From: Tuwongella immobilis
GTDB taxonomy: Bacteria; Planctomycetota; Planctomycetia; Gemmatales; Gemmataceae
NCBI RefSeq assembly: GCF_901538355.1
Contig: NZ_LR593887.1
Location: 6,424,920-6,488,919 of the forward strand
Direction of reading: 5' to 3'
DNA length: 64,000 nucleotides
In this document: one piece after another, positions 1,424 to 20,501 of the stretch
Position numbering within the stretch: the first letter of the stretch is position 1
Layout: the number at the start of each line of letters is the position of its first letter
Position numbers and translations under genes: made by a program
The notes under the pieces: generated by a model
Told to the model about the DNA's origin: nothing
What the model saw: the letters and a program-made list of their open reading frames with translations, nothing else
Databases searched by the model: none

Positions 1424-1924
1424 GTGGCGATTGAGTATGGGCTACCCACCACCCCACCTGAGGTTCTCGCGGCGGTGGAAACCTGGCTGGTCTCGAAGGC
1501 GATCCTGCCCGCCCACCTGATTTTCGCCACGGTGGCACCGATCGACGAGCTGGAAGGACAGCCACCTGGCGATCGCTTTGTCACACTCGCAATCCCGAAG
1601 CTGACAGCCGCCATGGGCGACCAGATCGGTGGTGGGCGATACCCAGTGACCATGCAGGGCGAGTTGGAAATCACAGCGTGGGCCCGGTTGGACGTCGACC
1701 AATACTTGCGTGCCCGCAATCATCTGCAATCACCACTCGGGGCTTGGGCGTTGGTGGGTTCGATTGCGACCATTGTCCAGACAGACTTCCAGTCGCTGGG
1801 CAAATCGATCCTGGCCGAACCGTTGCGGCTGAAGTCGATTGAAGCGCAGCAGACCAAGACGCGGTCGCTTCACCGGGTGCGGATGACCTTGGAATTTGGT
1901 CTGGTGCTTAAGGTGGCAACATGA
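1424..1924 (+). CDS. Phage protein, possible tail terminator or head-tail joining protein
   Basis: A 166-residue protein starting at GTG 1424, with AGGAG of the ribosome binding site at 1412-1416, 11 bases after the previous stop. The fold looks like alternating alpha/beta with no signal or membrane segment. Its size, and a layout of an N-terminal helix (PPEVLAAVETWLVSK) followed by strands, resemble small phage neck or tail-terminator proteins, but no diagnostic motif was found. The stop overlaps the next ATG in an ATGA (1921-1924), which suggests translational coupling. The role is inferred from context only. Confidence 0.5.
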   Translation: MAIEYGLPTTPPEVLAAVETWLVSKAILPAHLIFATVAPIDELEGQPPGDRFVTLAIPKLTAAMGDQIGGGRYPVTMQGELEITAWARLDVDQYLRARNHLQSPLGAWALVGSIATIVQTDFQSLGKSILAEPLRLKSIEAQQTKTRSLHRVRMTLEFGLVLKVAT

Positions 1925-4470
1925 GTGATGCGATTGAGATCAGCTTGACGTCCTACGATGAATATCGCGGCGGACAGCGTCAACGCAGGAAATTTCATTT
2001 GCCGGATCCCGAACTGGAAGCGGCGGTCAACGCATGGCTGGATGCGGATAATCCTGATGCGGTGTCCGTACTGGATCCGGGCTGGCCAGGTGTGAGCGCG
2101 GTCCATCTCTGCCCGCCTCGTCCGCATGTGCCCAAATCGATACCGCTCAATTGTCTGTATTGGCCAGTCGGCGCGAGCCGATGTGGTTTGTTCCGTGGGT
2201 TGATGGCTCCACAATCGCTGCCTGCTGTTTCAAACACGACGGGTATTGCAACGTGGTTCCTGGAATTTCGCCAGACCCGCGATGGACGGGTGGTGAAAGA
2301 ACTCGTTGTCGAAATGCATCTGGTAAGCGAAATCCCACTGTCTCGGATCGCTCCAGGATTTGTTCTGCTGACATTTGTGGACTATCGTTTCTTTTCCCGT
2401 GGGCGGCTTTACGATCCAGCGGATGCAATAATTGGTTTGCCCTCGTCGTTTCAAAGTGGGATTCCAACCCCAGTCAATCCGGCCAACATCCAATCCGACG
2501 ATTTTTCCACGACGGGGCTTTTAGGCATTTCCGCAGGCGTGGCATTGGACTCTTTGGCTGCCACCAACGCAGGGTTCCGCTCGTACCCATATGTGCTGAA
2601 TAATCGGGAAAACACCGGATCGATTCTGAGCGGTGATCCATACCATCGATTCGTGACCTGGGCTGCTGCAAATGAAGCAGCTGACGCGACGTTCCCACAG
2701 TTTTTTTCGGGCGGCAAAGATCGTGTCCCGCTCGGGCGAATCCGTGGGCGGGACGTTACCACCCCGCTGATAGCGCGTACAAATTTTGGACAGATTGTCA
2801 GGGAGAACGAGACAGGAGAAATCCTGCCGGAAGTGTACTACTGGATGACACCGCAGTGGAATCGACCGGAGGGGTTCATCTATCCGATCGGTCACCAAGT
2901 CTACACGCGGATGAACAACCAGAATGGCAACATCACGTTTGATGTTCTCACCTCGCCAATCACCACGCCACCGACCGTCGATTTCTGGTCGTTGATGCCT
3001 GCAATCCATCGCGATCGGGTGGTGTTCGATCTTCGGGATGATGAGACCGATTGGGCGTTATTCGCTGGGATTGGATCCGCGGCTGAGATCGAAGCGGATT
3101 GGCGGCGGCCTCGATTCTACCGGGAGCGCGTGACGACCACGCCTGACAACATTGCCGCGCTGCAAAAAATTGCTCTTGCCATGCACCGCAATTGGTACGA
3201 ATCGGCAGCGGTGTCATACCACGGGATCATCAATGGATTCGCGGTCATTTCCCCAGACTTGGGGCACGACATCACGTACCATTTCAAACGAGATCATGTC
3301 GCGGTCCACATCTTCAAAAATGTCTTGCAACATCGCCACCGCGTGAATTTAGAACGTGGGGATCAGACCCTGTTTTTGCCTGCGAATATGAACACGCTGG
3401 TGCCAAACCAATCGATTAACTCGCCTCGTGTGCTAACATCAGCCGACCGCTTTGGAATCAACACCACGGAACGGCAATTTTACACAGCCGCATTGCCAAA
3501 CCTTGGACTGTTTGCCGGTGTGTATTCAATCCCTGGCAAATGCATTACTCCAGGCACCGTGGAACGGTACCACTTTTCGGGTGACACTTGGGGCCATATC
3601 ATCCGCGATCTGACCGACGCCACAAATACAGGGCTGATCGGGAAAATCCGACCAGAGATGCTGGCACCCGATGCAGACTGGAGCCGCATCGCAAACAACC
3701 CCGTGTTTATGTATCCCCAAGGTGGGATCGATGGCGGAATGATCCGTCCAGGAACTATCCCTTGGCAGCTCGCGCCGAGTGGCGTGATTCCTGCATCGAA
3801 AATCAGCGGGTTGAACCAAGCGATTCGTGCTTTGTTGCAACTCGACAAGATCAGCAATTCGTTGCTTCAGGACAACGCTGTTTCGCCCAACAAAATCGTG
3901 GCGGGATCCATCACCAGCGCAAAACTGGCAAACAACTCGGTTACGGCGGTCAAGATTGCCGACGGGACGATCACGCTCGACAAGTTCCACCCAAGCATCC
4001 GGGCCGATCTACCCATCCGAGCAATCGAGGTAATGGCTGGCAGCGTTGCAACCTCAGCGTTGGTGGATGAAGCTGTCACCGCCGCAAAACTTGCAGCGGA
4101 GTCGGTTACGACTCCCAAGATTGCACCGGGTGCCATTACGGCTGACAAACTCGCTCCAGGTGTGCTTTCGACTCCGGGTGCTAATTCGGTCGGCACATCC
4201 CAGTTACAGGATGACTCGGTCACTGCTAACAAGCTCGCGGCGGAGTCTGTGACCACTACCAAGATTGCACCAGGTGCGGTTACCAACGCCCAAATGGCGC
4301 CATTGTCAGTGGGCACCGGGCAGTACCAAGGGAATTCGGTCACGGACTTTGCGTTGGCAGCAAACGCAGTCACAACCCCGAAACTGGCGGATGGGGCGGT
4401 GAACGCGGCCAAGATCGCGGCGGGTGCCGCGTTCAAGGTCGGTGACATTCTTCGAGGGGAGACATTCTGA
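1921..4470 (+). CDS. Large phage tail or fibre-like protein with C-terminal VT-KIA repeats
   Basis: An 849-residue protein coupled by ATGA to the gene before it. The first ~620 residues are of mixed composition and match no family I can name. From about residue 640 the sequence becomes a tandem array of short units of the form SVTxxKLAxxSVTTxKIAxGAIT, roughly a dozen in all. This pattern is familiar from phage tail fibres and bacterial surface stalks that form trimeric beta-rich shafts. Two units, KLAAESVTT at 4087 and 4231, are also nearly identical at DNA level, so the shaft has grown by internal duplication. The end (KVGDILRGETF) overlaps the next ATG by one base. Likely role: fibre shaft or host-binding part of the virion. 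Particle assembly itself cannot be seen from sequence. Confidence 0.6.
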   Translation: MSDAIEISLTSYDEYRGGQRQRRKFHLPDPELEAAVNAWLDADNPDAVSVLDPGWPGVSAVHLCPPRPHVPKSIPLNCLYWPVGASRCGLFRGLMAPQSLPAVSNTTGIATWFLEFRQTRDGRVVKELVVEMHLVSEIPLSRIAPGFVLLTFVDYRFFSRGRLYDPADAIIGLPSSFQSGIPTPVNPANIQSDDFSTTGLLGISAGVALDSLAATNAGFRSYPYVLNNRENTGSILSGDPYHRFVTWAAANEAADATFPQFFSGGKDRVPLGRIRGRDVTTPLIARTNFGQIVRENETGEILPEVYYWMTPQWNRPEGFIYPIGHQVYTRMNNQNGNITFDVLTSPITTPPTVDFWSLMPAIHRDRVVFDLRDDETDWALFAGIGSAAEIEADWRRPRFYRERVTTTPDNIAALQKIALAMHRNWYESAAVSYHGIINGFAVISPDLGHDITYHFKRDHVAVHIFKNVLQHRHRVNLERGDQTLFLPANMNTLVPNQSINSPRVLTSADRFGINTTERQFYTAALPNLGLFAGVYSIPGKCITPGTVERYHFSGDTWGHIIRDLTDATNTGLIGKIRPEMLAPDADWSRIANNPVFMYPQGGIDGGMIRPGTIPWQLAPSGVIPASKISGLNQAIRALLQLDKISNSLLQDNAVSPNKIVAGSITSAKLANNSVTAVKIADGTITLDKFHPSIRADLPIRAIEVMAGSVATSALVDEAVTAAKLAAESVTTPKIAPGAITADKLAPGVLSTPGANSVGTSQLQDDSVTANKLAAESVTTTKIAPGAVTNAQMAPLSVGTGQYQGNSVTDFALAANAVTTPKLADGAVNAAKIAAGAAFKVGDILRGETF

Positions 4471-5937: not shown

Positions 5938-6633
5938 ATGCGAATAATGCTGACCGTCCTCTCTCTGTGCATCCTGCACATCCCCGCACGCGCTGACCCG
6001 ATGATCTCCCTGCCGCCGACGCTCACCGCCCAGCCAGGTCGGCTGCTCCGCATCACGGCAGAGGCACCCGACGCAAAGCTGGTCCGATGGATCGTGACTG
6101 GGGAAGCGGACCTCATCCCACTCAATGAGTCGGGCAAGTCCGCCATCTTCTCGGCTGCGACTTCTGGCACTTACAAAATCGTCGCATACACGGCCAAGGG
6201 TGACATCCCTTCTGAGCCCGCTGTCTGCGTCGTGACCGTGGGCAATCCAACTCCACCGGCGCCCCCGACTCCACCCACTCCGACGCCGCCGACCGACCCG
6301 CTGGCCGCCGAGCTGCGGGCATTGCTCGCGGCGGACAGTTCGCCGGAGAAGGGCAAGCATGTCGAGGCCCTTTGTGAGCTGTACCGGCAGGCACAGGTGA
6401 CGGCTGACGATCCTGCGGTTGGAACCGCGGGGGCGTTGGCCGAGATCCTGAAGCGGTCCAGTGCGGCATTGGTGCCATCAACCGCACTGATCGGAGTGCG
6501 GAAGCGAGTGTCAGAGGTCCTCGGGGAGTCGCTGCCCAGCAACCCTGCTGAGCGATTGACTGCCGAGTCTCGAACTCGGGCAAAAGCGGCTTTCGCCCGA
6601 GCCCAAAAGGCTCTTTGTGAGGTGACAAAGTAA
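5938..6633 (+). CDS. Exported Ig-like protein of the prophage
   Basis: A 231-residue protein with a cleavable-looking signal peptide (MRIMLTVLSLCILHIPARA, cleavage near residue 19). Residues ~22-100 look like a single Ig or PKD-like beta-sandwich, ending CVVTVGNP. A proline-rich hinge (PPAPPTPPTPTPP) follows, then a ~130-residue helical tail with several Ala-rich helices. It starts the exported-protein cassette of the prophage; its stop overlaps the ATG of the papain-like protease by one base (TAATG), so the two are likely made together. The RBS is held in a predicted hairpin. Function unknown; a partner or wall-binding subunit of the protease is a reasonable guess. Confidence 0.55.
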   Translation: MRIMLTVLSLCILHIPARADPMISLPPTLTAQPGRLLRITAEAPDAKLVRWIVTGEADLIPLNESGKSAIFSAATSGTYKIVAYTAKGDIPSEPAVCVVTVGNPTPPAPPTPPTPTPPTDPLAAELRALLAADSSPEKGKHVEALCELYRQAQVTADDPAVGTAGALAEILKRSSAALVPSTALIGVRKRVSEVLGESLPSNPAERLTAESRTRAKAAFARAQKALCEVTK

Positions 6634-7691
6634 TGGCCAAATGGTTCAAAATCCTGGCTGCGATCTTGGGTGCGTTGGCGACGGTTACCGCGGCATTCGT
6701 GCTGACGGTGGCCCCCGTCGATCCCGAACCAGTCGCTGTGCCAGGTGCATTCGGTTGGGTCGCTGACCCTGATGCCGTCGCCGAGGTGGCGAAGGTGCAA
6801 CCATCGCCCACCATCGCCCAGACTCCGGCGGGTGGCGTTCCCGTCGAGTCGCTCCCAGACCATGCGTATCTCTGGGAGTTGGAACGCAACGTGACGGGGC
6901 AGAATCCCCCGCCGCAGAATCAAAAATCGGTCGGTTCGTGCGTATCCTTCGGGACCGCCCGTGCAATCGAGCGGACGCTGGCTGGACAACGGCAGGGCGC
7001 TCCCCCCGTTCGTCTGGTCGAAGAAGTCATCTATGGCGGCAGCCGTGTCGAGATTGGTGGCGGGCGAATCAGTGGCGATGGCAGCATCGGTGCCTGGGCC
7101 GCTGAGTTCGTCAAGCAGTACGGCGTCTTGGAGCGTGGAGCGTATCCCGGATACGACTTGCGATCGTACTCCGAATCGCTCTGCCGTGACTTTGGCCGGC
7201 TTGGTGTGCCCGACCCGCTGGAACCCACTGTTCGCAAGTTCCCGGTCAAGTCGATCACCCAAGTGACGACGTGGACCGAAGCCAAGCAAGCGCTGGCCAG
7301 CCGATATGGCATCGCCATCAGCAGCAGCCAGGGGTTCCAGATGCAGCGAGATTCTCGCGGTATCTGCGGGCCGTTTGGCCGCTGGATGCACTGCATGTGT
7401 TTGGATGGATACCATCGGGACGCGGACGGAACCGAGTACGGTCACATCGAGAACAGTTGGGGAGCCGACGCCCACCGTGGCCCGGTCGGGTGGGGCAACC
7501 CATCCACGGCAGGATTCTGGGCCCGCGCTGATGTCATCGACAAGATGCTTCGCCAGGGCGATTCATGGGCGTTCTCGGATGTCCAGGGATTCCCAGCTCG
7601 CCTCGACTGGCTACTGCAAAACAACCCCAAGGAGCGTGCATATGCCGCTGTTTCCAAGGCTACGGAACCGCATCATCACTCGAATCGTTGA
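6633..7691 (+). CDS. Membrane-anchored papain-like (C1 family) cysteine protease
   Basis: A 352-residue protein. Residues ~5-27 form one N-terminal hydrophobic segment (WFKILAAILGALATVTAAF), a signal anchor or uncleaved signal, so the rest should face the periplasm. The catalytic layout is papain-like: Q97 in NQKSVGSC six residues before C103, as in papain QGxCGSC; H253 in WMHCMCLDGY; and N274 in the signature ENSWG. All four hallmark residues are present, so an active protease is plausible. It sits between an exported Ig-like protein and a holin-like gene, inside a prophage. Phage lysis enzymes usually cut glycan or peptide crosslinks; a papain fold could instead cut wall-associated protein. 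That role is inference. Confidence 0.7.
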   Translation: MAKWFKILAAILGALATVTAAFVLTVAPVDPEPVAVPGAFGWVADPDAVAEVAKVQPSPTIAQTPAGGVPVESLPDHAYLWELERNVTGQNPPPQNQKSVGSCVSFGTARAIERTLAGQRQGAPPVRLVEEVIYGGSRVEIGGGRISGDGSIGAWAAEFVKQYGVLERGAYPGYDLRSYSESLCRDFGRLGVPDPLEPTVRKFPVKSITQVTTWTEAKQALASRYGIAISSSQGFQMQRDSRGICGPFGRWMHCMCLDGYHRDADGTEYGHIENSWGADAHRGPVGWGNPSTAGFWARADVIDKMLRQGDSWAFSDVQGFPARLDWLLQNNPKERAYAAVSKATEPHHHSNR

Positions 7692-7701
7692 GGTAATCGG
7701 G

Positions 7702-8409
7702 ATGAACTTTCTCAGTGGCTACAAGACCTACATCGCCGCTCTGGGACTCGCCGGGCTGGCCCTGTACCAACTCAGCCAGGCCCAATTCGAGCTGGCGATG
7801 CAATCGTTCCTGGCCGCGTTGGCAGCGGCGGGCCTTCGTGACGCGGTGGCGAAATCGACCCCGCCCACGCAGCCCACGAACCCGCCCAGCTCGCCGAGCG
7901 ACCCCAACAAAGAGACGATGATTCTCCCCATCCACCCCGTGACGAAGCTGGGTGTCGCGGCAATCGCGGTGCTGTTCCTCGGCAGCGCGGCAATGGCCAG
8001 CGACCCGGCCACGCGGGCCAAGGTGGCACTCGCACTCGCCCAAGCCCAGGCGAGTTGCAGCGTCGAGGCGATCGAAGCCAAGCCCAAGCCCATGACCTAC
8101 GCCGAAGCCCGAGCGGAGGCCATCCGTCAGAACGTGCCACTGATTGTCTGGGTGGGCCAATCTGCCCAGCCGATGAGCGGAGCGGTGAGTGTAGCGGTGG
8201 ATCAATTCGATGGTGCGGATGGCAAAGCTGTTGTAATCGGCAAGCCCGATGCCGGCGATCTCATGCGATTCCGGACCCTCCCCGGGACGCCGTCAGCGGC
8301 AGCGGTGGCGTTGCAGATCGACTGCCCCGACGGGAAGTGCCCGATCCCAACCAGCGCGGCAATCATCGGTGGGGCGGTGCAATTCTGCCCGACCTGCCCC
8401 CGACGATAA
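7702..8409 (+). CDS. Holin-like segment joined to an exported domain
   Basis: A 235-residue protein. I take ATG 7702, 10 bases after the protease stop, because the upstream extension of this frame runs inside the protease gene. Residues 1-72 (MNFLSGYKTYIAALGLAGLA...) look like a small phage membrane protein: one or two short hydrophobic helices, then a Pro/Ser-rich linker. From residue 73 (ATG 7918) a second signal-peptide-like stretch begins (TKLGVAAIAVLFLGSAAMA, Ala cleavage context). It leads into a ~145-residue domain with four cysteines near the end (DCPDGKCP and FCPTCP). Either this is a fusion or there is a second start at 7918, preceded by AAAGAG. Position after the protease supports a lysis-related or membrane role. 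Confidence 0.5.
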   Translation: MNFLSGYKTYIAALGLAGLALYQLSQAQFELAMQSFLAALAAAGLRDAVAKSTPPTQPTNPPSSPSDPNKETMILPIHPVTKLGVAAIAVLFLGSAAMASDPATRAKVALALAQAQASCSVEAIEAKPKPMTYAEARAEAIRQNVPLIVWVGQSAQPMSGAVSVAVDQFDGADGKAVVIGKPDAGDLMRFRTLPGTPSAAAVALQIDCPDGKCPIPTSAAIIGGAVQFCPTCPRR

Positions 8410-8440
8410 TCGCTGATCTCCGCAAGCAACGATCTCCTTG

Positions 8441-8481
8441 TCACCTCGGCAGTCTTCGCGGCTGTCGAGGTGATTTTGTTT
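8441..8481 (+). terminator. Rho-independent terminator of the exported-protein cassette
   Basis: Stem TCACCTCGGCAG (8441-8452) pairs with CTGTCGAGGTGA (8462-8473) with a single G-U pair and a 9-base loop, followed directly by TTTTGTTT (8474-8481). It lies 31 bases after the stop of the holin-like gene and separates this unit from the head module. Confidence 0.75.
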
Positions 8482-10658: not shown

Positions 10659-11729
10659 ATGGCAACGCCACGTTTTCTTTCACCGTACAACGGGTACATC
10701 CCGGCCGCGACTGGCCAGGCGATCGCCTTTGTGCGGGATCCGAAGAAGTTCAAGCTGAACGAATACGCTCAGCTCATCAAGAGTCCGAAGCCGGTCGGGA
10801 TCTACAGCTATCTCGATCCGGACTACGGGACGCGAGTCGTGACGGATGAGGAGTTCGCCTGGGAAGATGGCGACCGCCGACCTCAAAACAATCACAACTT
10901 GGCGAGCTTCAAGTTCGAGTCGTTCCGCTGCAAGCGGCGCAACTATGGCTTCACGCTCGGGTATGAGGCCATCGAAAACGCCGAAGGCAGCTTCGATCCG
11001 AAGATGTTTCACCAAGCGGGCATCCTCACCCAGGCGATGACCAACAAGACATCGCGGGTGATCAAGATGCTCGAAAACCCCACCAACTGGGGCAACAACC
11101 ACGCGACTGCGGATGTGCTCAATGGCGGTTTCGGTGGCTGGGATTTGGCGGCGGCTGACCCCAGTAGCCCGTACTACCTGGCCATCCGCAAAACTCTGAA
11201 CGAAGCCGTCCGCCGCATCGTGCTGATGACCAACGGCATGGTCACCATCAATGACCTGCGGTTGGTGATCAGTCCGGGACTGGCCAAGACCATGTCCGAG
11301 ACGGATGAGATCAACGCCTTCCTCAAGAACAATCAGTTTGGCCTGGGGCAGGTGACCGGCGGTGTGGCGAACCAGAACGAGAACTATGGTCTGCCGCCGC
11401 GGTATGCCAATCTGCCGATCATCGTCGAGGATGCGGTGATCGTCACGTCCCGGCCCAAGGCAAGCGGTGCCCCCGCTGTCATGGACGTGGACCGCACCTT
11501 CATCAAGAGCGATGACAGCGCCATCATCTGCTCGCGCGTAGGCGGTCTGGACGGGAACTACGGTTCACCATCGTTCTCCACCGTGCAGCTCTACTTCCAC
11601 AAGTATGAGCTCACCGTAGAAGGCTTCGATGACCCCGAGAACAAGCGCTACAACGGCAACGTCGTGGATCACTACCACGAGGTCCTCGCGGCTGCACCGG
11701 CAGGTTACCTCATCGAAGGATGCAAGTAA
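10659..11729 (+). CDS. Major capsid protein
   Basis: A 356-residue protein, the usual size for an HK97-fold capsid subunit. No signal or membrane segment is present. It has long mixed alpha/beta stretches: an N-arm (MATPRFLSPYNGYIPAATG), a long helix region around TQAMTNKTSRVIKMLENPTN, and strand-rich parts around PNQFGLGQV and LPIIVEDAVIVTS. The mention-worthy segment TINDLRLVISPGLAKTMSET resembles the VISPxxAxxL pattern of capsid A-domains in Mu-like and related phages. Its place directly after scaffold and decoration genes and before connector genes is the canonical one. There is no N-terminal delta domain, consistent with a separate scaffold gene. Confidence 0.65.
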   Translation: MATPRFLSPYNGYIPAATGQAIAFVRDPKKFKLNEYAQLIKSPKPVGIYSYLDPDYGTRVVTDEEFAWEDGDRRPQNNHNLASFKFESFRCKRRNYGFTLGYEAIENAEGSFDPKMFHQAGILTQAMTNKTSRVIKMLENPTNWGNNHATADVLNGGFGGWDLAAADPSSPYYLAIRKTLNEAVRRIVLMTNGMVTINDLRLVISPGLAKTMSETDEINAFLKNNQFGLGQVTGGVANQNENYGLPPRYANLPIIVEDAVIVTSRPKASGAPAVMDVDRTFIKSDDSAIICSRVGGLDGNYGSPSFSTVQLYFHKYELTVEGFDDPENKRYNGNVVDHYHEVLAAAPAGYLIEGCK

Positions 11730-13381: not shown

Positions 13382-14104
13382 TTACTTCTTGTTCACCCGC
13401 TTCGGTCGGATGCCCTTTTCCAAGAGCTGCGATGTCACGGCTCGCCACTCTGCATACGCCGCCAGCGTCTCCTTCGTGTAACTTCCTCGCTCCATGTGCC
13501 GATCCAGGTTGCCGAGATTACCGCTGTCCAGAAATGATGCCAGTTCCGTACTCGCGGTCAAACTTTTTGCTCCCTCGAATTTATCCAAAGTTTGATAGAA
13601 CTTGTTGCGGAGCTCAATCTCTGCCTCGGGAGTGGCGCCCTTTCTGGGCTGTGGTGGCTGACTTCGTTCCTCGGGCGGGCGAGTGTACCGACTAAAGTAC
13701 TCAGGGTCTTCCTGCAGCTTCTTTTCCGTGTCTTCTTGGATTGCGTTGAGCCAATCAGACATCGTATTTTGTGGCTTTGGTCCTGGAGGCTGATTCGCTT
13801 CCCTTTGTGGCCATAACCCTTTTGCAAGAATTGAATCCACAGATGCTCGCCATCGTGCATACGCTTGCAAGGATTCGTAGGTGTAGTTCCCTTGACGCAT
13901 GTGTTTATCAACCACGCCGATGCTGGCTCCGTCGAGGAACGAACCGATCATCGCACCTGCATTGAGTTCCCCGTGAACCCCTTCGTGTCGTTTCAGAGTA
14001 TCGAATAATTCCTGTCGATAATACTGCTCGTCTTTGCCCAACTGCTCAACACTTCTGCTGCAACCAACGCCAAGCAGCATCATCGCCATCAATGCCCATC
14101 GCAT
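13382..14104 (-). CDS. Putative prophage lipoprotein with duplicated helical domain
   Basis: A 240-residue protein; ATG 14104 is chosen because AAGGAG lies 8 bases upstream and it begins a short signal sequence ending LLGVGC (C15), a weak lipobox. Two related ~70-residue domains are visible, residues ~28-99 and ~164-234. They share SFLD, a G-x2-G-x2-D-x-HM pattern, G-x-YT-x-E-x-L-x-AYA-x-WRA and a closing KG-x2-P. The linker holds MSDWLNAI (115-122) and DPEYFSRYTRPP (133-144), almost identical to the C-terminus of the tape-measure-like protein three kilobases away. This is the last gene of the leftward unit. Function unknown. Membrane attachment suggests a role at the host envelope, for example superinfection exclusion, but that is speculation. 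Confidence 0.5.
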   Translation of the reverse strand: MRWALMAMMLLGVGCSRSVEQLGKDEQYYRQELFDTLKRHEGVHGELNAGAMIGSFLDGASIGVVDKHMRQGNYTYESLQAYARWRASVDSILAKGLWPQREANQPPGPKPQNTMSDWLNAIQEDTEKKLQEDPEYFSRYTRPPEERSQPPQPRKGATPEAEIELRNKFYQTLDKFEGAKSLTASTELASFLDSGNLGNLDRHMERGSYTKETLAAYAEWRAVTSQLLEKGIRPKRVNKK

Positions 14105-14164
14105 CGCAAAACTCCTTGAATGTGATCGGACCGATGGCAATGATGCTACCACGCCCCAGATCAA

Positions 14165-16072
14165 TCAATCAAGCAGAGACTCTAACAGCCAGTTGTCCCC
14201 ATCACCGGACGTGCCCCAAACCAAATCGCTCGAACGTCCTTTGGTGGCACCAGCAGAGGCAAAGGTGAGCTGTCCATCGCGGCGAATGTATGGCGTCACA
14301 GGCGCGGTGACCTGCACTTGATCCGCGAATGCAGAGACGTAGTGGTAGACACCAGCCACTTCGTAGATGAACGAATCACCATCTGCCGCCAGGCGAACAT
14401 TGCTGACCTCGCATGTTCGGTCCAGCGGAATCCAGTTAGAGTATTCGCCCTCGCCGGGGTTTGGATCGGGCACAACCGGAGGGCTGCCCGTTCGGGCACA
14501 CGACCAGGTGACATCGAGGTAGGTTACGGCAGCCCCCATCTGCAACACGGTCACTCGCTCACCAGGCGATGTTGGGGTCAGCACATGGCGATTGGATTTG
14601 ACACGATAGCGAGACTTGATCGTGTAGTGATCATAGACCCCCGGATCGGGATCTTCGTACCTTGTCGGGATGGCAGGTAACGATGCCACCTCGGTGATGC
14701 TGGTAATCAGGTTGCCGATGCTGGCGATGATTCCCCCGGCGGTGGTCCGCACTTGCACTTGTCCAGTCGGTGCCGATGACGATTCTGTGGCCGCTGTCGA
14801 GTTGGTTGCGAGCCGTCGGCTCTCCGTCCCTTGGGGAGTGACGGGTGGCTTTTCTTGCCCGCCACCGCTCCAGATGCCGCCGGACAGAACCCGTTCTTGC
14901 TGCTGGACATACGCTTCCGCACAGGGATCTTTGAAAGCAAATGCCAGCATACGCAGGAATCCAACATTCCCATCAGTCCCCGGGCCAACTCCGGCAAAGT
15001 TGTATCTGGGCTCTTTCTTGGGATCCCATCCACGGTTATCCCAACGGCTAGTGTCCGCATCTTTGCCAGATAGCCCCAGCAGCGTCGAGGGAGGTTTGAT
15101 CTGCGCTCGAAGCGTGATGTCAACCGTTGGCTCGAACAGGTCTTGCATCACCGTCCCCGCGATCATGAATTGAGAACGGTTGATTTTTCCATTGGTCCCC
15201 AGCGGGTTCGCGAGTTGGAGCTTGGTCATCCCAATTGCGGCGGCTCGCTGCAGAAGTACTGAATAAGGTGTGTTTTTTGCACCGGTCAGTCGCAATTGGA
15301 CTTGACCGTAGACCAACCCATCTGTCCCGGTGGTTTCCAGATACTTGCCGCTTGCCTTGATCGCGGGGTCAGGAGCCATGACAAACTGTTCCACGTCCGT
15401 CATCTCGAAGTCCATCGCAAGCCCGTCGGCTTGCAACGTGTATCGGGTCTGCGATCGAACAAAGCCTGTTGGCACTGCCGGCGTCACGCTCGCTCGCAGT
15501 TCATCAGGCGACTTTCTGACATCGCGTCGCGTGATCATTCGACCGGTTGTGGTCTGCGTGCAAATCCACTTTTCATCAAAGCCCAGCGTTTGTGTCCATC
15601 GGATCGACAGAATCGCTGAGTCTTTTTGATCACAGCCGAGAATTGTTGTCTCGATGGAAAACTCCACCAAGAAAGTCTCGGCCGTGATCTTGTGAGCCCG
15701 AAGCACTTTGGGCGTTGGTCCCTTGGCGATGTCTTTGGTCTCCGATGCGTCCATGTCACCGGTCACATGGATGATGGGCGAATTCCCCACCCCGTACCAC
15801 AGCGTCTTTCGGGGGGTGAGTAACTTGGTTCGGATCGCTGCCAGTTGCACCGCCGGATCGACAGCGCTGCTCAACCCTTGTTGGACGGTCTCCAGCGTTT
15901 TGGTTCCTCGGTCAGCTTGCGCCGTCGGTGCCGTGGAGAGAATCCCCGTCACATGGATTGTGACCGCGAACCCAATCACATCGGTGTTCGTCGGATCGTA
16001 AACCGCCTGCTGCTCAACGGTTTGCGTCGAGATGTACGGGATTTCAATACCGTTGTAGATCAACTTACTCAT
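14165..16072 (-). CDS. Phage tail or baseplate-type protein
   Basis: A 635-residue protein. ATG 16072 is chosen: AGGAGA lies just upstream and the start overlaps the stop of the tape-measure-like gene in an ATGA. The N-terminal ~270 residues are beta-rich and begin MSKLIYNGIEIPYISTQTVE, reminiscent of proteins that pack against the tail tube tip. The C-terminal third carries Gly/Pro/Ser linkers and a final beta domain. No lysozyme or peptidase motif was seen. Following a tape-measure-like gene, a distal-tail or baseplate role is the natural guess. No family was recognised with certainty. Confidence 0.5.
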   Translation of the reverse strand: MSKLIYNGIEIPYISTQTVEQQAVYDPTNTDVIGFAVTIHVTGILSTAPTAQADRGTKTLETVQQGLSSAVDPAVQLAAIRTKLLTPRKTLWYGVGNSPIIHVTGDMDASETKDIAKGPTPKVLRAHKITAETFLVEFSIETTILGCDQKDSAILSIRWTQTLGFDEKWICTQTTTGRMITRRDVRKSPDELRASVTPAVPTGFVRSQTRYTLQADGLAMDFEMTDVEQFVMAPDPAIKASGKYLETTGTDGLVYGQVQLRLTGAKNTPYSVLLQRAAAIGMTKLQLANPLGTNGKINRSQFMIAGTVMQDLFEPTVDITLRAQIKPPSTLLGLSGKDADTSRWDNRGWDPKKEPRYNFAGVGPGTDGNVGFLRMLAFAFKDPCAEAYVQQQERVLSGGIWSGGGQEKPPVTPQGTESRRLATNSTAATESSSAPTGQVQVRTTAGGIIASIGNLITSITEVASLPAIPTRYEDPDPGVYDHYTIKSRYRVKSNRHVLTPTSPGERVTVLQMGAAVTYLDVTWSCARTGSPPVVPDPNPGEGEYSNWIPLDRTCEVSNVRLAADGDSFIYEVAGVYHYVSAFADQVQVTAPVTPYIRRDGQLTFASAGATKGRSSDLVWGTSGDGDNWLLESLLD

Positions 16073-17406
16073 GATTGCTCTCCTGGCGGCTTTGTGTATT
16101 TGCTGAAATATTCCGGATCGGCTGCTTGTTGGCGGCGTCCTTGGTCTGCGACCGCTTGGAGCCAGTCCGACATGACACGTGTGTCGGCTTCTTGCTGATC
16201 GCGTTCTGCACGCGATTTGAACAAGTCCAGCCCGGCGTTGACCGCTTTTGAGATCCACCCCAGCGGGCGAACGGCTTCGGTGATCAGGCTCTGTGCCCCA
16301 CCCATGAGGGTGTTGCCGATGCGTCCCGTCAGTACCTCGATCTCTTTGGTGACATCTTTCCAGTTCTGGTCTTGGCGGCTGAGATAGCCCGCCGAGGAGG
16401 CCAGCCGCTGCCCCTTCTCAAGATCCCGGAGCGTGTCTTGGATTTTGGCACTGGCAAAGATCGCGGCCATCGCCGGTGACACCCCAGCCAGCGCCTTGTT
16501 GTGTTCGAGCATTTCCTTGGTGCCAGCTCGAACCGCCTTGCCAAACTCCAGCAAGGCGCTGGCAGCCGCGACATAGGGCACCGCTTTGCCCGCCAGCCGA
16601 TTGACCGCCCGAGACGCCAATGGGCTGGCCAGCGCCTTGTGGACCGTCGGGGTGATGATCCGGCCGTTCTTGTCGATGTTGGCCCCCCGCGAGATCTGTC
16701 CTCGTCCCGGATCGCGTGGCCGCGCTGCCCCAGTCTGTTGCTGCGGCGCCCCATCATCACCGCCAGTCGATCCCGGCGATTGTGGGCCGCCACCTCCGCC
16801 GCCGCCTTCGCCCGCGCTCCCGCCGAAAGCGCGTGGCTTCTTCATCCGCCGTCCCAACGACTTGGCAAGACTGCTGGACAGCTTCATCACGGGTTGGATC
16901 AGTCGCCGGTTCAGGATGCTGGTCGGCTCGGTTGTCTCCGCCGCGGAGCCACCGAACTTGCTCAGCGCTTTGCCCAAGCGAGCCAGCCCGCGATACCGCC
17001 GTCTCGGGGTGCCATCGCCAGATGACTCCGCCTCCGGCGCGGGAGCTGGTGCGGCTGTTGCCGTTGGGATCGGGGTGCCACTTGCTCCAGCGCGGGCGGC
17101 GGTGATCGAGAGTCGCAAGAACTGCTCGAACATCGTTTGGATGGCAGGTGCGAACTGGATGATCCCAGAGCCACCAGCGCTGGTGGGCGAGTTGGTGGGG
17201 GATGTGGAGTTGGAGCGGGATCGCGGCTTGTCCTCGGGGATCGGCAGCGCGCGCGGCCCCGCTGGGCCGGGGTCTTTCACTCCATACCCACCCTCGGACA
17301 TCTTGTTCAGCTTCTCCAACTGTTCCTCCGACATCCCCGGATGGAACCTGCGGAGCAGATCCTTGCCCGCAATCGTATGCACAGACTCATGCACTTTCGG
17401 CGTCAC
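16069..17406 (-). CDS. Tape-measure-like phage tail protein
   Basis: A 445-residue protein; GTG 17406 is preferred because AAAGGAG lies 8 bases upstream and an earlier start would run into the divergent sigma gene. The N-terminus (TPKVHESVHTIAGKDLLRRF) is followed by low-complexity segments: Ser/Pro rich (~70-90), Ala/Pro rich (~120-140) and a poly-Gly stretch (~210-230). The C-terminal half is helical with hydrophobic patches (AVPYVAAASALLEFG, SPAMAAIFASA). This composition, helical with Ala/Gly and hydrophobic patches, suits a short tape measure. The end, MSDWLQAV...DPEYFSKYTKPPGEQS, is shared with the nearby lipoprotein. It is short for a tape measure, so the tail would be short or the gene reduced. 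Confidence 0.45.
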   Translation of the reverse strand: MTPKVHESVHTIAGKDLLRRFHPGMSEEQLEKLNKMSEGGYGVKDPGPAGPRALPIPEDKPRSRSNSTSPTNSPTSAGGSGIIQFAPAIQTMFEQFLRLSITAARAGASGTPIPTATAAPAPAPEAESSGDGTPRRRYRGLARLGKALSKFGGSAAETTEPTSILNRRLIQPVMKLSSSLAKSLGRRMKKPRAFGGSAGEGGGGGGGPQSPGSTGGDDGAPQQQTGAARPRDPGRGQISRGANIDKNGRIITPTVHKALASPLASRAVNRLAGKAVPYVAAASALLEFGKAVRAGTKEMLEHNKALAGVSPAMAAIFASAKIQDTLRDLEKGQRLASSAGYLSRQDQNWKDVTKEIEVLTGRIGNTLMGGAQSLITEAVRPLGWISKAVNAGLDLFKSRAERDQQEADTRVMSDWLQAVADQGRRQQAADPEYFSKYTKPPGEQS

Positions 17407-17513: not shown

Positions 17514-18134
17514 ATGCCACCACAACCAGCCCGTTCCCGCGCTGCAGCCGACGAGCTGTTTCGGCTCAACCAAGGGCTCGCCATCCAAGCGGCCATCTTG
17601 CTCCGCGACTGTCAGTCGCTCATCCCATTCGATGACTTGAAGCAGATCGCCCTGATGACCCTGTGGCAAGTCTGCCTGAAATGGGATCCGCGCTCCAACA
17701 CCCCGTTCAGCACCTTTGCCTTTACCACCATCAAGAATCGGCTCATCAACGCGATCCGCACGACCCACCGACTGCCATTGGCGGAGCGCGAGGACGATTG
17801 CCCATTGGCATCCGTCCATGACCGGCCAGCGCTGCCCGAGCGAGACCCGGACAGCATGGGAACAATCCGGGAATGGTTGGCCCAACTCGACCAGCCCATC
17901 GATCGGCAAGTGATCATCATGAGCTATGGGCTGGATGGCTGTGGGTATTCGCTCGATCAGATCGCGGCGGGACTGGGGATCAAACGGCGGCAAGTCGCCA
18001 TCTATCTCCGGCGTGCCATGGACAAACTGGCGGTCATCGCGGGGGTGAAAGATGCAGTGGTTAAAGACAAACCAAGTCCGCGTCGAAGGCATGTTGTTTC
18101 ACAGACAGGCGATCTGTTCGCAGACTGTGAGTGA
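17514..18134 (+). CDS. Phage-encoded sigma-70-family RNA polymerase sigma factor
   Basis: A 206-residue protein starting at ATG 17514, after GAGG. Region 2 is clear: FDDLKQIALMTLWQVCLKWD, then FSTFAFTTIKNRLINAIR, the AY-x-I-N-x-ID-x2-R type core and DNA-melting segment. Region 4 follows after a short linker: LDQPIDRQVIIMSYGLDG, then a helix-turn-helix around SLDQIAAGLGIKRRQVAIYLRRAM. The lack of regions 1 and 3 fits an ECF-like or phage late-gene sigma factor. It is divergent from the tail unit and overlaps the ParB-like gene by 83 bases. Likely role: switching host RNA polymerase to prophage promoters; the repeated GAACAATCC upstream motif is one candidate target. Confidence 0.75.
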   Translation: MPPQPARSRAAADELFRLNQGLAIQAAILLRDCQSLIPFDDLKQIALMTLWQVCLKWDPRSNTPFSTFAFTTIKNRLINAIRTTHRLPLAEREDDCPLASVHDRPALPERDPDSMGTIREWLAQLDQPIDRQVIIMSYGLDGCGYSLDQIAAGLGIKRRQVAIYLRRAMDKLAVIAGVKDAVVKDKPSPRRRHVVSQTGDLFADCE

Positions 18135-18576
18135 CTATGCCCGGCGGATGATCCTCGGAGATGAGTTCCCGCCCATCGGGGTGGTTTACGATGGGACCGA
18201 ATACTGGCTCTGGGACGGCTTTCATCGGATGGCGGCAGCGAAGCAAGCGGGCTTGGCCACCATCGCCGCTGAGCTGACAGAAGGCACTTGGCGAGACGCC
18301 CTGCTGTTATCGGTGGGGGCAAATAAAGTGCATGGGCAGCGGCGATGGTGGCCGGATGCTATGCGTGCCGCGGTAATGCTGCTCCAAGACGAGGAGTGGG
18401 GCGCCTGGCCGGATGACCAAATCGCCAAGCTGGTCGGCATCGGGGCCAGCGAAGTCGCCGAACTCCGCCGCTCCCATCCTCGGCTGACGTGGAGCCGCCT
18501 CTCTGGAGGGACCACACGGCGATTGGTCCGCCGCGCCGAAGCGGCCTATGACCCGATGGTGGGAAGAAGGGCATAG
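18052..18576 (+). CDS. ParB-like nuclease-domain protein
   Basis: A 174-residue protein. Residues ~30-75 carry the ParB/Sulfiredoxin fold pattern: FPPIGVVYDGTEYWLWDGFHRMAAAKQAG, in which DGFHR corresponds to the GERR-type box of ParB N-domains. A helix-turn-helix-like segment follows (DDQIAKLVGIGASEVAELRRSHP). There is no dimerisation domain, and it is short compared with chromosomal ParB (~280-300 residues). It starts inside the sigma gene (83-base overlap). Such small ParB-fold proteins in phages can be DNA-binding regulators, nucleases or CTPase-type adaptors; which applies cannot be told here. Confidence 0.65.
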   Translation: MQWLKTNQVRVEGMLFHRQAICSQTVSDYARRMILGDEFPPIGVVYDGTEYWLWDGFHRMAAAKQAGLATIAAELTEGTWRDALLLSVGANKVHGQRRWWPDAMRAAVMLLQDEEWGAWPDDQIAKLVGIGASEVAELRRSHPRLTWSRLSGGTTRRLVRRAEAAYDPMVGRRA

Positions 18577-18581
18577 AAAGA

Positions 18582-18622
18582 CACAGGCCCCTCATGCAGA
18601 AAACTGCCATAAGGGGCCTGTG
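18582..18622. terminator. Bidirectional terminator
   Basis: Perfect 11 bp stem CACAGGCCCCT (18582-18592) / AGGGGCCTGTG (18612-18622) with a 19-base loop. It lies between the stop of the ParB-like gene and the stop of the leftward membrane-protein gene; the leftward exit is followed by a T-rich stretch. Confidence 0.7.
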
Positions 18623-18623
18623 C

Positions 18624-18998
18624 TCAAGAGTTTGCATCACGCGTAAAGTAATAGGTGATGGCACCGCCAACCAAACCAGAGATTACCGGCAACCAAGCAG
18701 TAAACGCAGTCGTAAGCTGTTTGGTTGATTCTACCGCAGAACAAGCGGCTAGAATCGCGAGCAAGATGAAGTAGAGACCAACACTGCCACCGAGAATACC
18801 AACTAACCATGTGGCAAGTTTACTTGCTGTCTCTGCATGATGTTTGACCGGCTCAAACAAAGAGCCTTGACGGACAGGCTCGCTCGGAAAGTCTTGTGGT
18901 GCAGAGATAGAGGAGAAGTCTCTGTTACCGCTTGCTGTAGAGTCTGTTGAAGAGCTAGAGCTGGCCGCAGAAGTTGAAAGGTCCTCGTCGCCACTCAC
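18624..18998 (-). CDS. Small two-helix membrane protein
   Basis: A 124-residue protein with a GTG start overlapping the stop of the gene before it by GTGA. Residues 1-45 are Ser-rich and probably disordered. Two transmembrane helices follow: about 62-86 (ATWLVGILGGSVGLYFILLAILAA) and about 96-117 (AFTAWLPVISGLVGGAITYYF). The C-terminus is short (TRDANS). No family recognised. It is coupled to a ribbon-helix-helix-like protein. Small two-helix membrane proteins at prophage edges can be holins, exclusion factors or toxins of toxin-antitoxin pairs. Confidence 0.55.
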   Translation of the reverse strand: MSGDEDLSTSAASSSSSTDSTASGNRDFSSISAPQDFPSEPVRQGSLFEPVKHHAETASKLATWLVGILGGSVGLYFILLAILAACSAVESTKQLTTAFTAWLPVISGLVGGAITYYFTRDANS

Positions 18999-19240
18999 GA
19001 TTGGACCTTTCGGCGTCTTCGAGATTGCGATACCAGTCGTCGCTCCGATTGTGTTCTTGGATTCCGGACGATGATTTCAGTGAAACCATCCGCTTGTTGT
19101 TCGAGAAACAGTTGTTGAAGACGAAAAGATTCACTCAAGGTCTCAGCGATTGAGCTAAGATCCTTCAGTTTCATCACCTTCTCGATTTCCTCCAATGTTT
19201 TTTGATCAAATCGAAAAGTAATTTCTTTCTTCTCTGCCAT
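18995..19240 (-). CDS. Ribbon-helix-helix-like small DNA-binding protein
   Basis: An 81-residue protein. Residues 6-50 fit a ribbon-helix-helix fold: a short strand (EITFRFDQ), helix A (TLEEIEKVMKLK) and helix B (SIAETLSESFRLQQLF). The C-terminal end is very basic (SERRLVSQSRRRRKVQS). The ATG has AGAGGTG upstream. It is translationally coupled to the two-helix membrane protein. RHH proteins typically bind their own operator as dimers, so autoregulation is likely. It may be the antitoxin or repressor member of a two-gene module. The low-scoring RHH match means another small fold cannot be excluded. Confidence 0.5.
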   Translation of the reverse strand: MAEKKEITFRFDQKTLEEIEKVMKLKDLSSIAETLSESFRLQQLFLEQQADGFTEIIVRNPRTQSERRLVSQSRRRRKVQS

Positions 19241-19778
19241 GGTTCACCTCTCAAAACGAGGTAGAGAATATGACGCATTTCCGAACGTCACATCTCTTTG
19301 CCTTGCTATGACCAGGGTATGCCCCCAACTTTTGGAAGTCAAACCCTTAATACACACTAGTCGTTATATTCGGGACAAACAAGCCGGAAAAAGGTTCACA
19401 AGTGTCATTTCGTGCCTTGTGGTGCTCTACAGTGGTCTGGAGTGGACACTAAGACAATTCACGAATAATCGCAATTTGAGTTGTTATCGAAAGTTGGTCC
19501 CAAACATTCTGATTAATACCAAAAGGAGGGCGTGCGCCGCTTTTTGCGCCACCCGGTTCGGAATTGCTTGTGTTTTGCTTAGAAAACTCGTGATGTGCTG
19601 ATACCTTTAGTATTCGTGGATTTCATCGATTCTTCAAGGGGGAGATGCCCGATTCTTGCAATTGCAACGGGGCACGGGCCACCTTTTGGCGATGCAACGA
19701 TTCTGCGGGTTGTCAGGGGGCATTGCTTGCGCTTATGCTGAAGGAAGACGCGATGATGCAACTGGAGAATCTCCCCCG
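19241..19778. other. AT-richer gap at the prophage edge
   Basis: No convincing gene. A 120-codon rightward open frame (19239-19601) has no ribosome binding site, begins inside the RHH start region and has a Cys/Arg-rich composition, so I reject it. The base composition is clearly lower in GC than both sides, especially 19440-19530. A hairpin-capable segment GGCG...CGCC surrounds a T5 run near 19528-19550. No tRNA, integrase or direct-repeat attachment site was found. It marks the switch from phage to backbone genes. Confidence 0.5.
19314..19342 (-). promoter_or_regulatory. Candidate promoter of the RHH/membrane-protein pair
   Basis: On the minus strand TTGACT (19342-19337) and TACCCT (19319-19314) are 17 bases apart. 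The -35 is near consensus and the -10 is poor. It lies 74 bases before the RHH-like start codon. Confidence 0.3.
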
Positions 19779-20501
19779 ATGCTCGCTTGGCCCGATCTTC
19801 AGCGCCGTGACCGCCAGCCGGAATGGATGGACCAACCGGATTTGGCCCCGGAACTGCACACGGCCGCACTGCGGGGATTGGCCCGACTCAACGCCGTCTC
19901 TGGTGCCGTCGGCATGCTCTGGCGCCCCTTGCGACAATTGGCCCAGCGTCTGAACCGCCCGCTGCGGATTCTCGACCTCGCCGCCGGGGGATGCGATACG
20001 CTCCTGGCATTGGCCCACCGCGCCAAACGGGCCGGATATTCCTGGCATTGGGCCGCCTGCGACCGCTCCCCACAGGCCCGCAACTTGGCACTCGAACAGG
20101 CTGCACGGGCCGGAATCGCGCTCGAATATCACACCCAAGACCTGCTCACGCAACCACTCCCGACCGGGTACGATGTCCTCACCTGCTCCTTATTCCTGCA
20201 TCATTTGAATGAATCCGAGATTATCACCCTGCTGCAACACGCCTCCGAAGCCGCCGGGGAGATGCTTCTGGTCAATGATTTGATTCGCTCGCGGTTGAGT
20301 TATGCGTTGGTCTGGTTGGGTTGTCGGCTGTTGACTCGCTCGCCGGTGGTGCATGTCGATGGGCCGCTGTCGATTCGAGCGGCGTTCACCGTCGCGGAAT
20401 GGCGACAACTCGCGGAACGTGCCGGACTCGCCCCGGTGCAGCAGTCGATCGGCTGGCCTGCTCGCATGCAATTGCAATGGAATCGCCCCCATGACGGCTA
20501 A
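19779..20501 (+). CDS. Class I SAM-dependent methyltransferase
   Basis: A 240-residue protein; ATG 19779 (MLAWPDLQRRD) is chosen with GGAGA ten bases upstream; the frame is open further upstream but without a good start. Motif I is clear (RILDLAAGGCDTLLALA, residues ~65-80), an acidic motif II lies around ACDRSP, and the post-I block reads YDVLTCSLFLHHL, as in UbiE/ubiquinone-type methyltransferases. It overlaps the next gene by 11 bases and so forms one operon with an FAD oxidoreductase and a type III PKS. Probable role: O- or C-methylation of the polyketide product. The substrate cannot be read from sequence. Confidence 0.75.
   Translation: MLAWPDLQRRDRQPEWMDQPDLAPELHTAALRGLARLNAVSGAVGMLWRPLRQLAQRLNRPLRILDLAAGGCDTLLALAHRAKRAGYSWHWAACDRSPQARNLALEQAARAGIALEYHTQDLLTQPLPTGYDVLTCSLFLHHLNESEIITLLQHASEAAGEMLLVNDLIRSRLSYALVWLGCRLLTRSPVVHVDGPLSIRAAFTVAEWRQLAERAGLAPVQQSIGWPARMQLQWNRPHDG

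Follow-up and report, generated by a model that had tools for sequence, protein, structure and literature searches.

How tailed phages of planctomycetes leave their host cells is the question raised by a three-gene cassette in a prophage of Tuwongella immobilis (Gemmataceae); we found no description of a lysis module of such phages in the literature searched, which did not extend to preprints and most papers in subscription journals. The cassette lies at positions 5938-8409 of a stretch of 64,000 nucleotides (contig NZ_LR593887.1 of assembly GCF_901538355.1, positions 6,424,920-6,488,919, forward strand), called the window below, and consists of three open reading frames (ORFs) with a terminal hairpin. 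An earlier note, made from the sequence alone, had described a membrane-anchored papain-like protease, an exported Ig-like protein and a holin-like protein in a prophage and had proposed a protease-based exit. Our analysis suggests that the cassette is a late envelope-directed module that most likely serves phages of Planctomycetota for exit (lysis), a reading to which we give about an even chance.

The papain-family protease and its partner genes

The second gene of the cassette (6633-7691, plus strand) encodes a protein of 352 amino acids, residues 93-279 of which matched the Pfam family Peptidase_C1 (PF00112) with 27.7 bits (curated cut-off, 20.7; E value, 3.5e-6). The four papain hallmarks named in the earlier note were all found at their positions on the plus strand: the oxyanion-hole glutamine Q97 (codon at 6921-6923) and the catalytic residues C103 (6939-6941), H253 (7389-7391) and N274 (7452-7454). 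In an alignment of 207 protease relatives, H253 was histidine in 207/207 and C103 was cysteine in 205, with a gap in the remaining 2; N274 was asparagine in 195 and glutamine in 12. Q97 was glutamine in 164 relatives, arginine in 31 and alanine in 9, with gaps in the other 3; the divergent members inspected had a glutamine one position after this site. Trp276 was invariant across the same alignment.

Structure prediction against C1 peptidases, set as a check in the earlier note, gave a clear papain fold. An AlphaFold2 model built with 50 sequences had a predicted local distance difference test score (pLDDT) of 89.7 and a predicted template modelling score (pTM) of 0.82, and its confident part formed a single protease domain without a separate wall-binding domain. 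The best match found by VIA-align was xylellain (3ois; Z 23.3, root mean square deviation 3.0, 243 residues, 18% identity), followed at Z 19-22 by pro-cathepsins, pro-papain (4qrx, Z 21.3) and further C1 enzymes; all 50 structure matches listed were C1 peptidases (Z 19.3-23.3). On the basis of the fold match and the conservation, C103, H253 and N274 can be placed in a predicted papain active site. Profile, catalytic residues and modelled fold thus all agree that the window protease is a member of the papain (C1) family, and a chance ORF or spurious motif is ruled out by the Pfam match, the structure and the family-wide conservation. PF12386, the family of the C71 pseudomurein endoisopeptidases, did not appear in the Pfam results for the protease at E values up to 1.

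A hydrophobic helix predicted for residues 2-21 (6636-6695, plus strand; hydrophobic stretch from residue 7) is the putative anchor of the protease. Membrane anchoring therefore holds for the window copy but is not a family trait, as a simple hydrophobicity scan found an N-terminal membrane stretch in 34 of 157 viral relatives, those at contig ends being excluded.

The first gene (5938-6633, plus strand) is joined to the protease gene by a TAATG stop-start overlap (6631-6635, plus strand), in agreement with the coupling that had been claimed. Its product of 231 amino acids has a signal-like start (residues 1-19), an Ig-like sandwich (about 20-103), a proline-rich linker and a five-helix C-terminal domain (about 121-230), and the signal-like start together with the modelled Ig-like domain supports its description as an exported Ig-like protein. 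The model had a pLDDT of 93.2 and an overall pTM of 0.58, so the mutual placement of the two domains is not fixed. The Ig part resembled the Ig-like domains of phage SU10 (Z 11.3) and of lambda gpV (Z 10.0), as well as a Big_2 domain (Z 10.0). Chagasin-type (I42) proteins are Ig-fold inhibitors of papain-like proteases; no chagasin was present among the structure matches listed for the model.

The third gene (7702-8409, plus strand; 235 amino acids) lies in frame within a longer ORF (7306-8409) and encodes a two-part protein. A short membrane piece with the motif GYKTY (7702-7866, plus strand) is fused to, or overlaps with, an exported domain (7918-8409, plus strand) that has its own in-frame ATG and a signal-like stretch and forms the conserved part. 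Eight relatives aligned from other genomes comprised the exported domain only, the membrane piece being confined to the prophage group of the window, and profile comparisons of the exported domain linked g3 with g25 (E 4.4e-14) and with g6 (E 3.6e-9). Family searches gave no holin match for the third protein, whole or in either part, and library scans gave no convincing family match for it or for the Ig-like protein. The second export signal that had been claimed for a holin-like protein corresponds to the signal-like stretch of the exported domain, but the likeness to a holin is one of topology only and belongs to a separate part. A CPDGKCP-like cysteine motif occurs in the exported domain (7918-8409), and in large phages a similar motif ends exported proteins that are encoded behind the protease (e.g., L243:4791-5132). 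Behind the third gene, a terminator-like hairpin (8440-8474, plus strand) of 15 pairs is followed by TTTGTTT (-26.2 kcal/mol). The hairpin and T-rich tail of the rho-independent terminator that had been proposed are present, but the pattern alone is not significant, because a terminator-pattern scan found 2 sites against 1.9 expected in shuffled sequence.

The prophage around the cassette is real, as the earlier note had it; this is shown by its terminase, portal, repressor, KilA-N and tail-fibre matches. Its left end, upstream of the window, carries S24-type repressor, KilA-N and integrase genes, the integrase match (27.0 bits) falling just below the cut-off of 27.1, and genes for the terminase (E 5.1e-100) and portal (E 6e-28) also lie upstream of the cassette. 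Within the window, tail-fibre families at 1921-4470 precede the cassette and a weak match to a major head protein (phrog_1005, E 5e-4) follows at 10659-11729. The cassette therefore stands between tail-fibre and head genes, a late-operon position such as characterizes phage lysis cassettes. Farther right, three genes on the minus strand (13382-17406), one lipoprotein-like and two large, had no Pfam match at E values up to 0.01 and no PHROG match at E values up to 0.1, and the gene at 17514-18134 matched phage sigma-factor families.

Gene neighbourhoods and replacement at a capsid-linked slot

Genes were called in 208 loci (175 from IMG/VR, L005, L006 and 31 genome loci), and the 196 with a called protease, 169 of them viral, were used, the other 12 being dropped. 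Because the simple gene caller errs in some loci (e.g., wrong-frame calls in L490 and in L036 at 18002-19834), the neighbour counts carry noise; names of head and tail genes outside the window were given by position and a look at the sequence. Directly upstream of the protease we found the Ig-like family v1 in 95 of the 196 loci, v6 in 29, v7 in 28 and v4 in 3; in 41 loci the gene belonged to no named family. In total, v1, v6 or v7 occupied this place in 152. Both v6 and v7 are membrane-anchored proteins that stand in place of v1 in other clades. Profile comparison revealed a C-terminal helical region common to v1 and v6 (E 3.3e-6, probability 88%) and to v1 and v7 (E 9.4e-6, 83%); the direct comparison of v6 with v7 was weak (E 0.0074). 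These profiles suggest that the helical domain is the constant partner of the protease and that the front end is variable.

Membrane and exported proteins were concentrated around the protease. Among same-strand genes, a membrane or signal-like stretch was present in 135/182 at offset -1, 105/175 at +1, 85/167 at -2 and 67/149 at +2, which amounts to 392/673 (58%) for offsets -2 to +2, compared to 81/921 (9%) at 6-10 genes to either side. Recurrent small families included v2 (at +1, often with a C-terminal membrane stretch), v3 (often with two hydrophobic stretches), v4/v40 (N-terminal membrane stretch and coil) and v11. Within five genes, v2 accompanied 56 of 132 proteases lacking an N-terminal membrane stretch and 0 of 50 having one; this exclusion is a hint only, because the counts ignore relatedness.

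The organisation was modular and differed between phage types. On the siphophage-like contigs L132 and L134, tape-measure-like and tail-like genes were followed by v4, v1, the protease and v2; in the large phage L239, the order was tail-fibre-like genes, v11, v3, v9, v6, protease and v12. In the L188 clade, terminase-like, portal-like and prohead-protease-like genes preceded v3, v7, the protease, v13, v25 and the capsid gene. A function as prohead protease is disfavoured for the papain-like enzyme, since this head-slot clade has a separate candidate (named by eye) adjoining the cassette. A cluster of 20 metallophosphoesterase-like proteins (named by eye; e.g., L101) was also seen, 15 of which lay two genes upstream of the protease.

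The capsid-linked slot was followed in the best 80 of 278 relatives of the L188-type capsid, whose loci were searched in six frames with profiles. All 27 loci with at least 5.2 kb of upstream sequence had kept v3, and 18 of them carried the papain gene and 9 a gene for a protein of 290 amino acids; none carried both and none neither. The 53 loci with less upstream sequence contained the papain gene in 24 cases, the 290-amino-acid gene in 9, both in 0 and neither in 20, and these 20 cannot be judged. In most loci a gene for a trypsin-like exported protein began 7-84 bases after the 290-amino-acid gene; in four loci (L498-L501) an overlapping secondary match took the place of this spacing. The trypsin-like protein of L410 matched PF13365 (E 1.7e-21), with His, Asp and GDSGGP visible by eye. 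It also matched RT-Protease_XI (E 1.4e-9) and defence models of three further kinds, which was taken to reflect the shared trypsin domain. A search with one 290-amino-acid protein yielded 29 IMG/VR loci. Among the 31 records formed by these, L424 and L448, 27 had a Trypsin_2 match, and in 3 of the 4 others the contig ended either right at the 290-amino-acid gene or no more than about 115 bases from it. The papain alignment matched 0 of these 31 records in a search that included no positive control; a related profile did find the papain genes in the 80 capsid loci. A replacement scan at the tail slot gave at least 10 loci, several of them on contigs already in the set.

One protease-bearing cassette thus replaces another, one for one and in one slot, and this is the strongest indirect evidence for proteolysis as the function: the slot at the capsid locus seems to demand a protease. 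The 290-amino-acid family itself, found at L410:5639-7285, in L424 and L448 and in the 29 IMG/VR loci, adjoins the exported trypsin-like protease gene. A Gln-Cys pair with a spacing of six and a His-Ala-Val are invariant in its 19 full-length sequences and resemble papain motifs. As its profile matched the papain family weakly (E 0.0084 on 60 columns) and it has no Pfam family, it is a candidate papain-like protein only; it also had no PADLOC match at E values up to 0.1.

Spread among genomes and viruses

Four copies of the protease gene were found in the T. immobilis genome, namely that of the window, a pair 95-96% identical to it and a fourth with 54% identity. The 95% copy (L038) belongs to a sister prophage with similar structural genes, and the 96% copy (L039) is preceded by different genes; the third cassette protein is 96% identical in L038 and 85% in L039. 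Nonsynonymous over synonymous rates (dN/dS) of the window protease were 0.035/0.298 against L038 and 0.050/0.197 against L039. In L038, two additional called genes (14532-15669) separate the third cassette gene from the prophage genes that come next.

Beyond this genome, the cassette proved to be widely shared among phages and prophages, which the earlier note had set as a check. Matches occurred in 38 of 99 genomes searched, that of the window included, and three scans of IMG/VR gave 182, 41 and 56 stretches encoding a protease relative, counts that may overlap; from the first scan the best 80 of 182 were used. A scan of 84,980 species genomes gave 31 loci, 29 of which were labelled planctomycetes and one of which, L283, was labelled Proteobacteria. 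With the protease as the sole query, no relative in a cultured phage was found at E values up to 0.01 in 50,697 annotated phage records.

Two further groups were noted. Phage contigs of up to 238 kb (L225-L251, e.g., L239:6320-10118) carry a divergent papain module with a small membrane family downstream, a representative of which (L230:11978-12229) matched Transglycosylase associated protein (PF04226). In L076, L078 and L079, from three genomes, a papain-module element lies beside a uvrA-like gene of about 2,170-2,180 codons, in the vicinity of terminase-like and NYKTY membrane genes (named by eye).

Proposed exit module, rival explanations and known systems

A role of the cassette in lysis is supported indirectly, because it occupies a late-operon position, lies in a cluster of envelope genes, comes with no recognised murein hydrolase and is replaced by the trypsin-like-protease locus. 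Family searches recognised no murein-degrading enzyme among the three window proteins. The five families covered, PF01510 (Amidase_2), PF13539 (Peptidase_M15_4), PF00959 (Phage_lysozyme), PF01464 (SLT) and PF05257 (CHAP), each matched 0 of 42 papain-bearing IMG/VR records (2.88 Mb), which may be fragments. One of the 42, L005, is identical to L039 over 10 kb and hence not independent of it. For three of these families, 50 random IMG/VR records (1.14 Mb; taken from a list of 80) served as a control and gave 4 matches for PF00959, 1 below the cut-off for PF13539 and 0 for PF01510; counted per base, the difference over these three families had a p value of 0.002.

If the cassette is an exit module, the window protease would act late, reaching the periplasm via its own N-terminal anchor. 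In the anchorless viral relatives, which are the majority, the protease would presumably pass after a small membrane protein, acting as holin, has opened the inner membrane. In the periplasm it would cut envelope proteins, with or without the peptide stems of peptidoglycan, and the host would lyse; the upstream exported protein, which keeps its C-terminal helical domain behind an Ig-like front end or a membrane helix, would probably hold, guide or restrain the protease. A wider version, in which these phages exit by envelope proteolysis instead of murein hydrolysis, with interchangeable enzyme classes (papain-like mostly, a trypsin-like locus elsewhere) and with the machinery taken over by host chromosomes, appears doubtful to us.

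Several observations weigh against an exit module. The murein-hydrolase control was modest, with 5/50 versus 0/42 over three families (Fisher p 0.06 per record). Among representatives of the small families no recognised holin or spanin was found, the best holin match being phrog_4898 (E 0.019) and the best Rz-like match phrog_456 (E 0.064). L506, a member of the 290-amino-acid family, has 1 kb of sequence beyond this gene without a trypsin-like gene. The full three-gene cassette also occurs at a non-prophage chromosomal site, between NIF3 and DUF480/peptide-deformylase genes, in two genomes of one genus (L055:8962-11311 and L059:8675-11024). This pair is under purifying selection, with dN/dS of 0.135/0.861 (about 0.16) for the protease, 0.143/1.03 (about 0.14) for the Ig-like protein and 0.238/1.31 for the third protein, compared to 0.108/0.884 (about 0.12) for NIF3. 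In all, 9 of 40 genome loci (e.g., L055, L059, L057 and L074) had no detectable phage neighbour, a classing that misses unfamiliar prophages because a limited set of viral proteins was used. One cultured planctomycete phage is reported to exit without lysis, by chronic release (PMC10945688). A planctomycete wall of typical, lysozyme-sensitive peptidoglycan is also reported (PMC4432640), so the premise of the earlier note, a low peptidoglycan content, is outdated, and proteolysis by itself should not be enough. Even with such a wall, proteins of the surface layer or outer membrane could still call for a protease, a task that falls to spanins elsewhere. The protease-based exit thus draws indirect support from position, envelope cluster and replacement, but it is not proven, and its argument from the wall must be softened.

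From the purifying selection it follows that the cassette can be kept outside phages, by the host, and the chromosomal cassette can be a domesticated lysis or envelope function or the original source. This bears on a rival explanation, in which phages would carry the cassette as host-benefit cargo (a moron): a planctomycete protease unit, secreted or for remodelling of the envelope, that serves, e.g., surface change or phage exclusion and has no part in lysis. It would account for the three-gene copy kept at the same chromosomal place in L055 and L059 with low dN/dS and for the single proteases of L052 and L054, which adjoin HIT and RNase HII-like genes. It also fits a FastTree phylogeny of 207 sequences (167 from IMG/VR and 40 from genomes, a label that includes prophages), in which the source label changed at least 16 times; the two kinds of copies interleave there, and the tree does not settle the direction. 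A cargo gene is typically present in some close relatives and absent from others, whereas each of the 27 judgeable capsid-related phages has at the slot either the papain gene or the alternative cassette with its own protease. The module is also present on many phage contigs, where it lies late in the operon and is accompanied by several small membrane proteins; this speaks against cargo, as does the lack of any match of the three window proteins to a known defence family (PADLOC, E values up to 0.1), by which a known defence system was rejected as well. We consider cargo rather unlikely.

Improbable, in our view, is an endolysin of unusual fold, that is, a papain-like enzyme that cuts peptidoglycan stems or cross-links within a normal holin-endolysin-spanin set. 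The earlier note had called a papain-type enzyme in phage lysis unusual, which stands, but it is not unheard of: papain-type folds occur in lysins, in the CHAP and amidase families (PMC10318531), and in the N5 domains of mycobacteriophage Lysin A (PMC3314691), and the thiol enzymes PeiW and PeiP open pseudomurein (PMC4592898). Proteins with the names Lysin A, N acetylmuramidase and Peptidoglycan binding-like are also among the viral structure matches of the window protease, and no other murein hydrolase was found among the five families tried. Nevertheless, the window enzyme is closest to true protein-cutting C1 proteases, its confident model has one protease domain and no wall-binding one, and the replacing cassette bears a trypsin-like enzyme. 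That enzyme class is not known to cut murein. The gene order of the L188 clade, with the protease between prohead-protease-like and capsid genes, would also suit a virion or entry factor packed in the particle, and the chronic release mentioned above (PMC10945688) a helper that frees budding particles from the surface layer without lysis. We regard such roles as very unlikely, as that clade has its own prohead-protease candidate (named by eye), virion proteins seldom have signal-like starts and membrane helices such as those of the neighbours, and the chronically released phage is another one, outside the present comparison.

Planctomycetes are diderm bacteria with an odd envelope, and the module supplies named genes for the question of their lysis. 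Many uncultured viruses with the same package may exit by cutting host envelope proteins. If the protease does the work, this would be a new exit route beside the known lysis systems and would point to load-bearing proteins of the planctomycete envelope; the module might also serve as a marker of planctomycete viruses in metagenomes or as a tool for opening planctomycete cells.

Compared to known systems, the cassette resembles the holin-endolysin-spanin cassettes in its late position, its compact coupled genes and its combination of small membrane proteins with one enzyme, but differs from them in the absence of the five murein-hydrolase families from the 42 records and of a recognised holin or spanin family. 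With the N5 domain of mycobacteriophage Lysin A it shares a papain-family domain in a phage protein linked to lysis (PMC3314691), and the window protease matched Lysin A of phage Indlulamithi in structure (E 6.2e-4); those domains, however, sit in modular endolysins, whereas here a single protease domain is accompanied by separate exported partners. PeiW and PeiP of methanogen phages are likewise thiol enzymes that open a non-standard wall (PMC4592898), but belong to another family, C71 (PF12386; PMC10318531). The closest likeness in fold is to the C1A peptidases (papain, PF00112; 3ois), with which the window protease shares the catalytic Q/C/H/N residues and a Pfam score above the curated cut-off; it is set apart from them by its identity of only 18% to 3ois, its encoding by a phage, its recurrent upstream partner gene and the N-terminal anchor predicted for the window copy.

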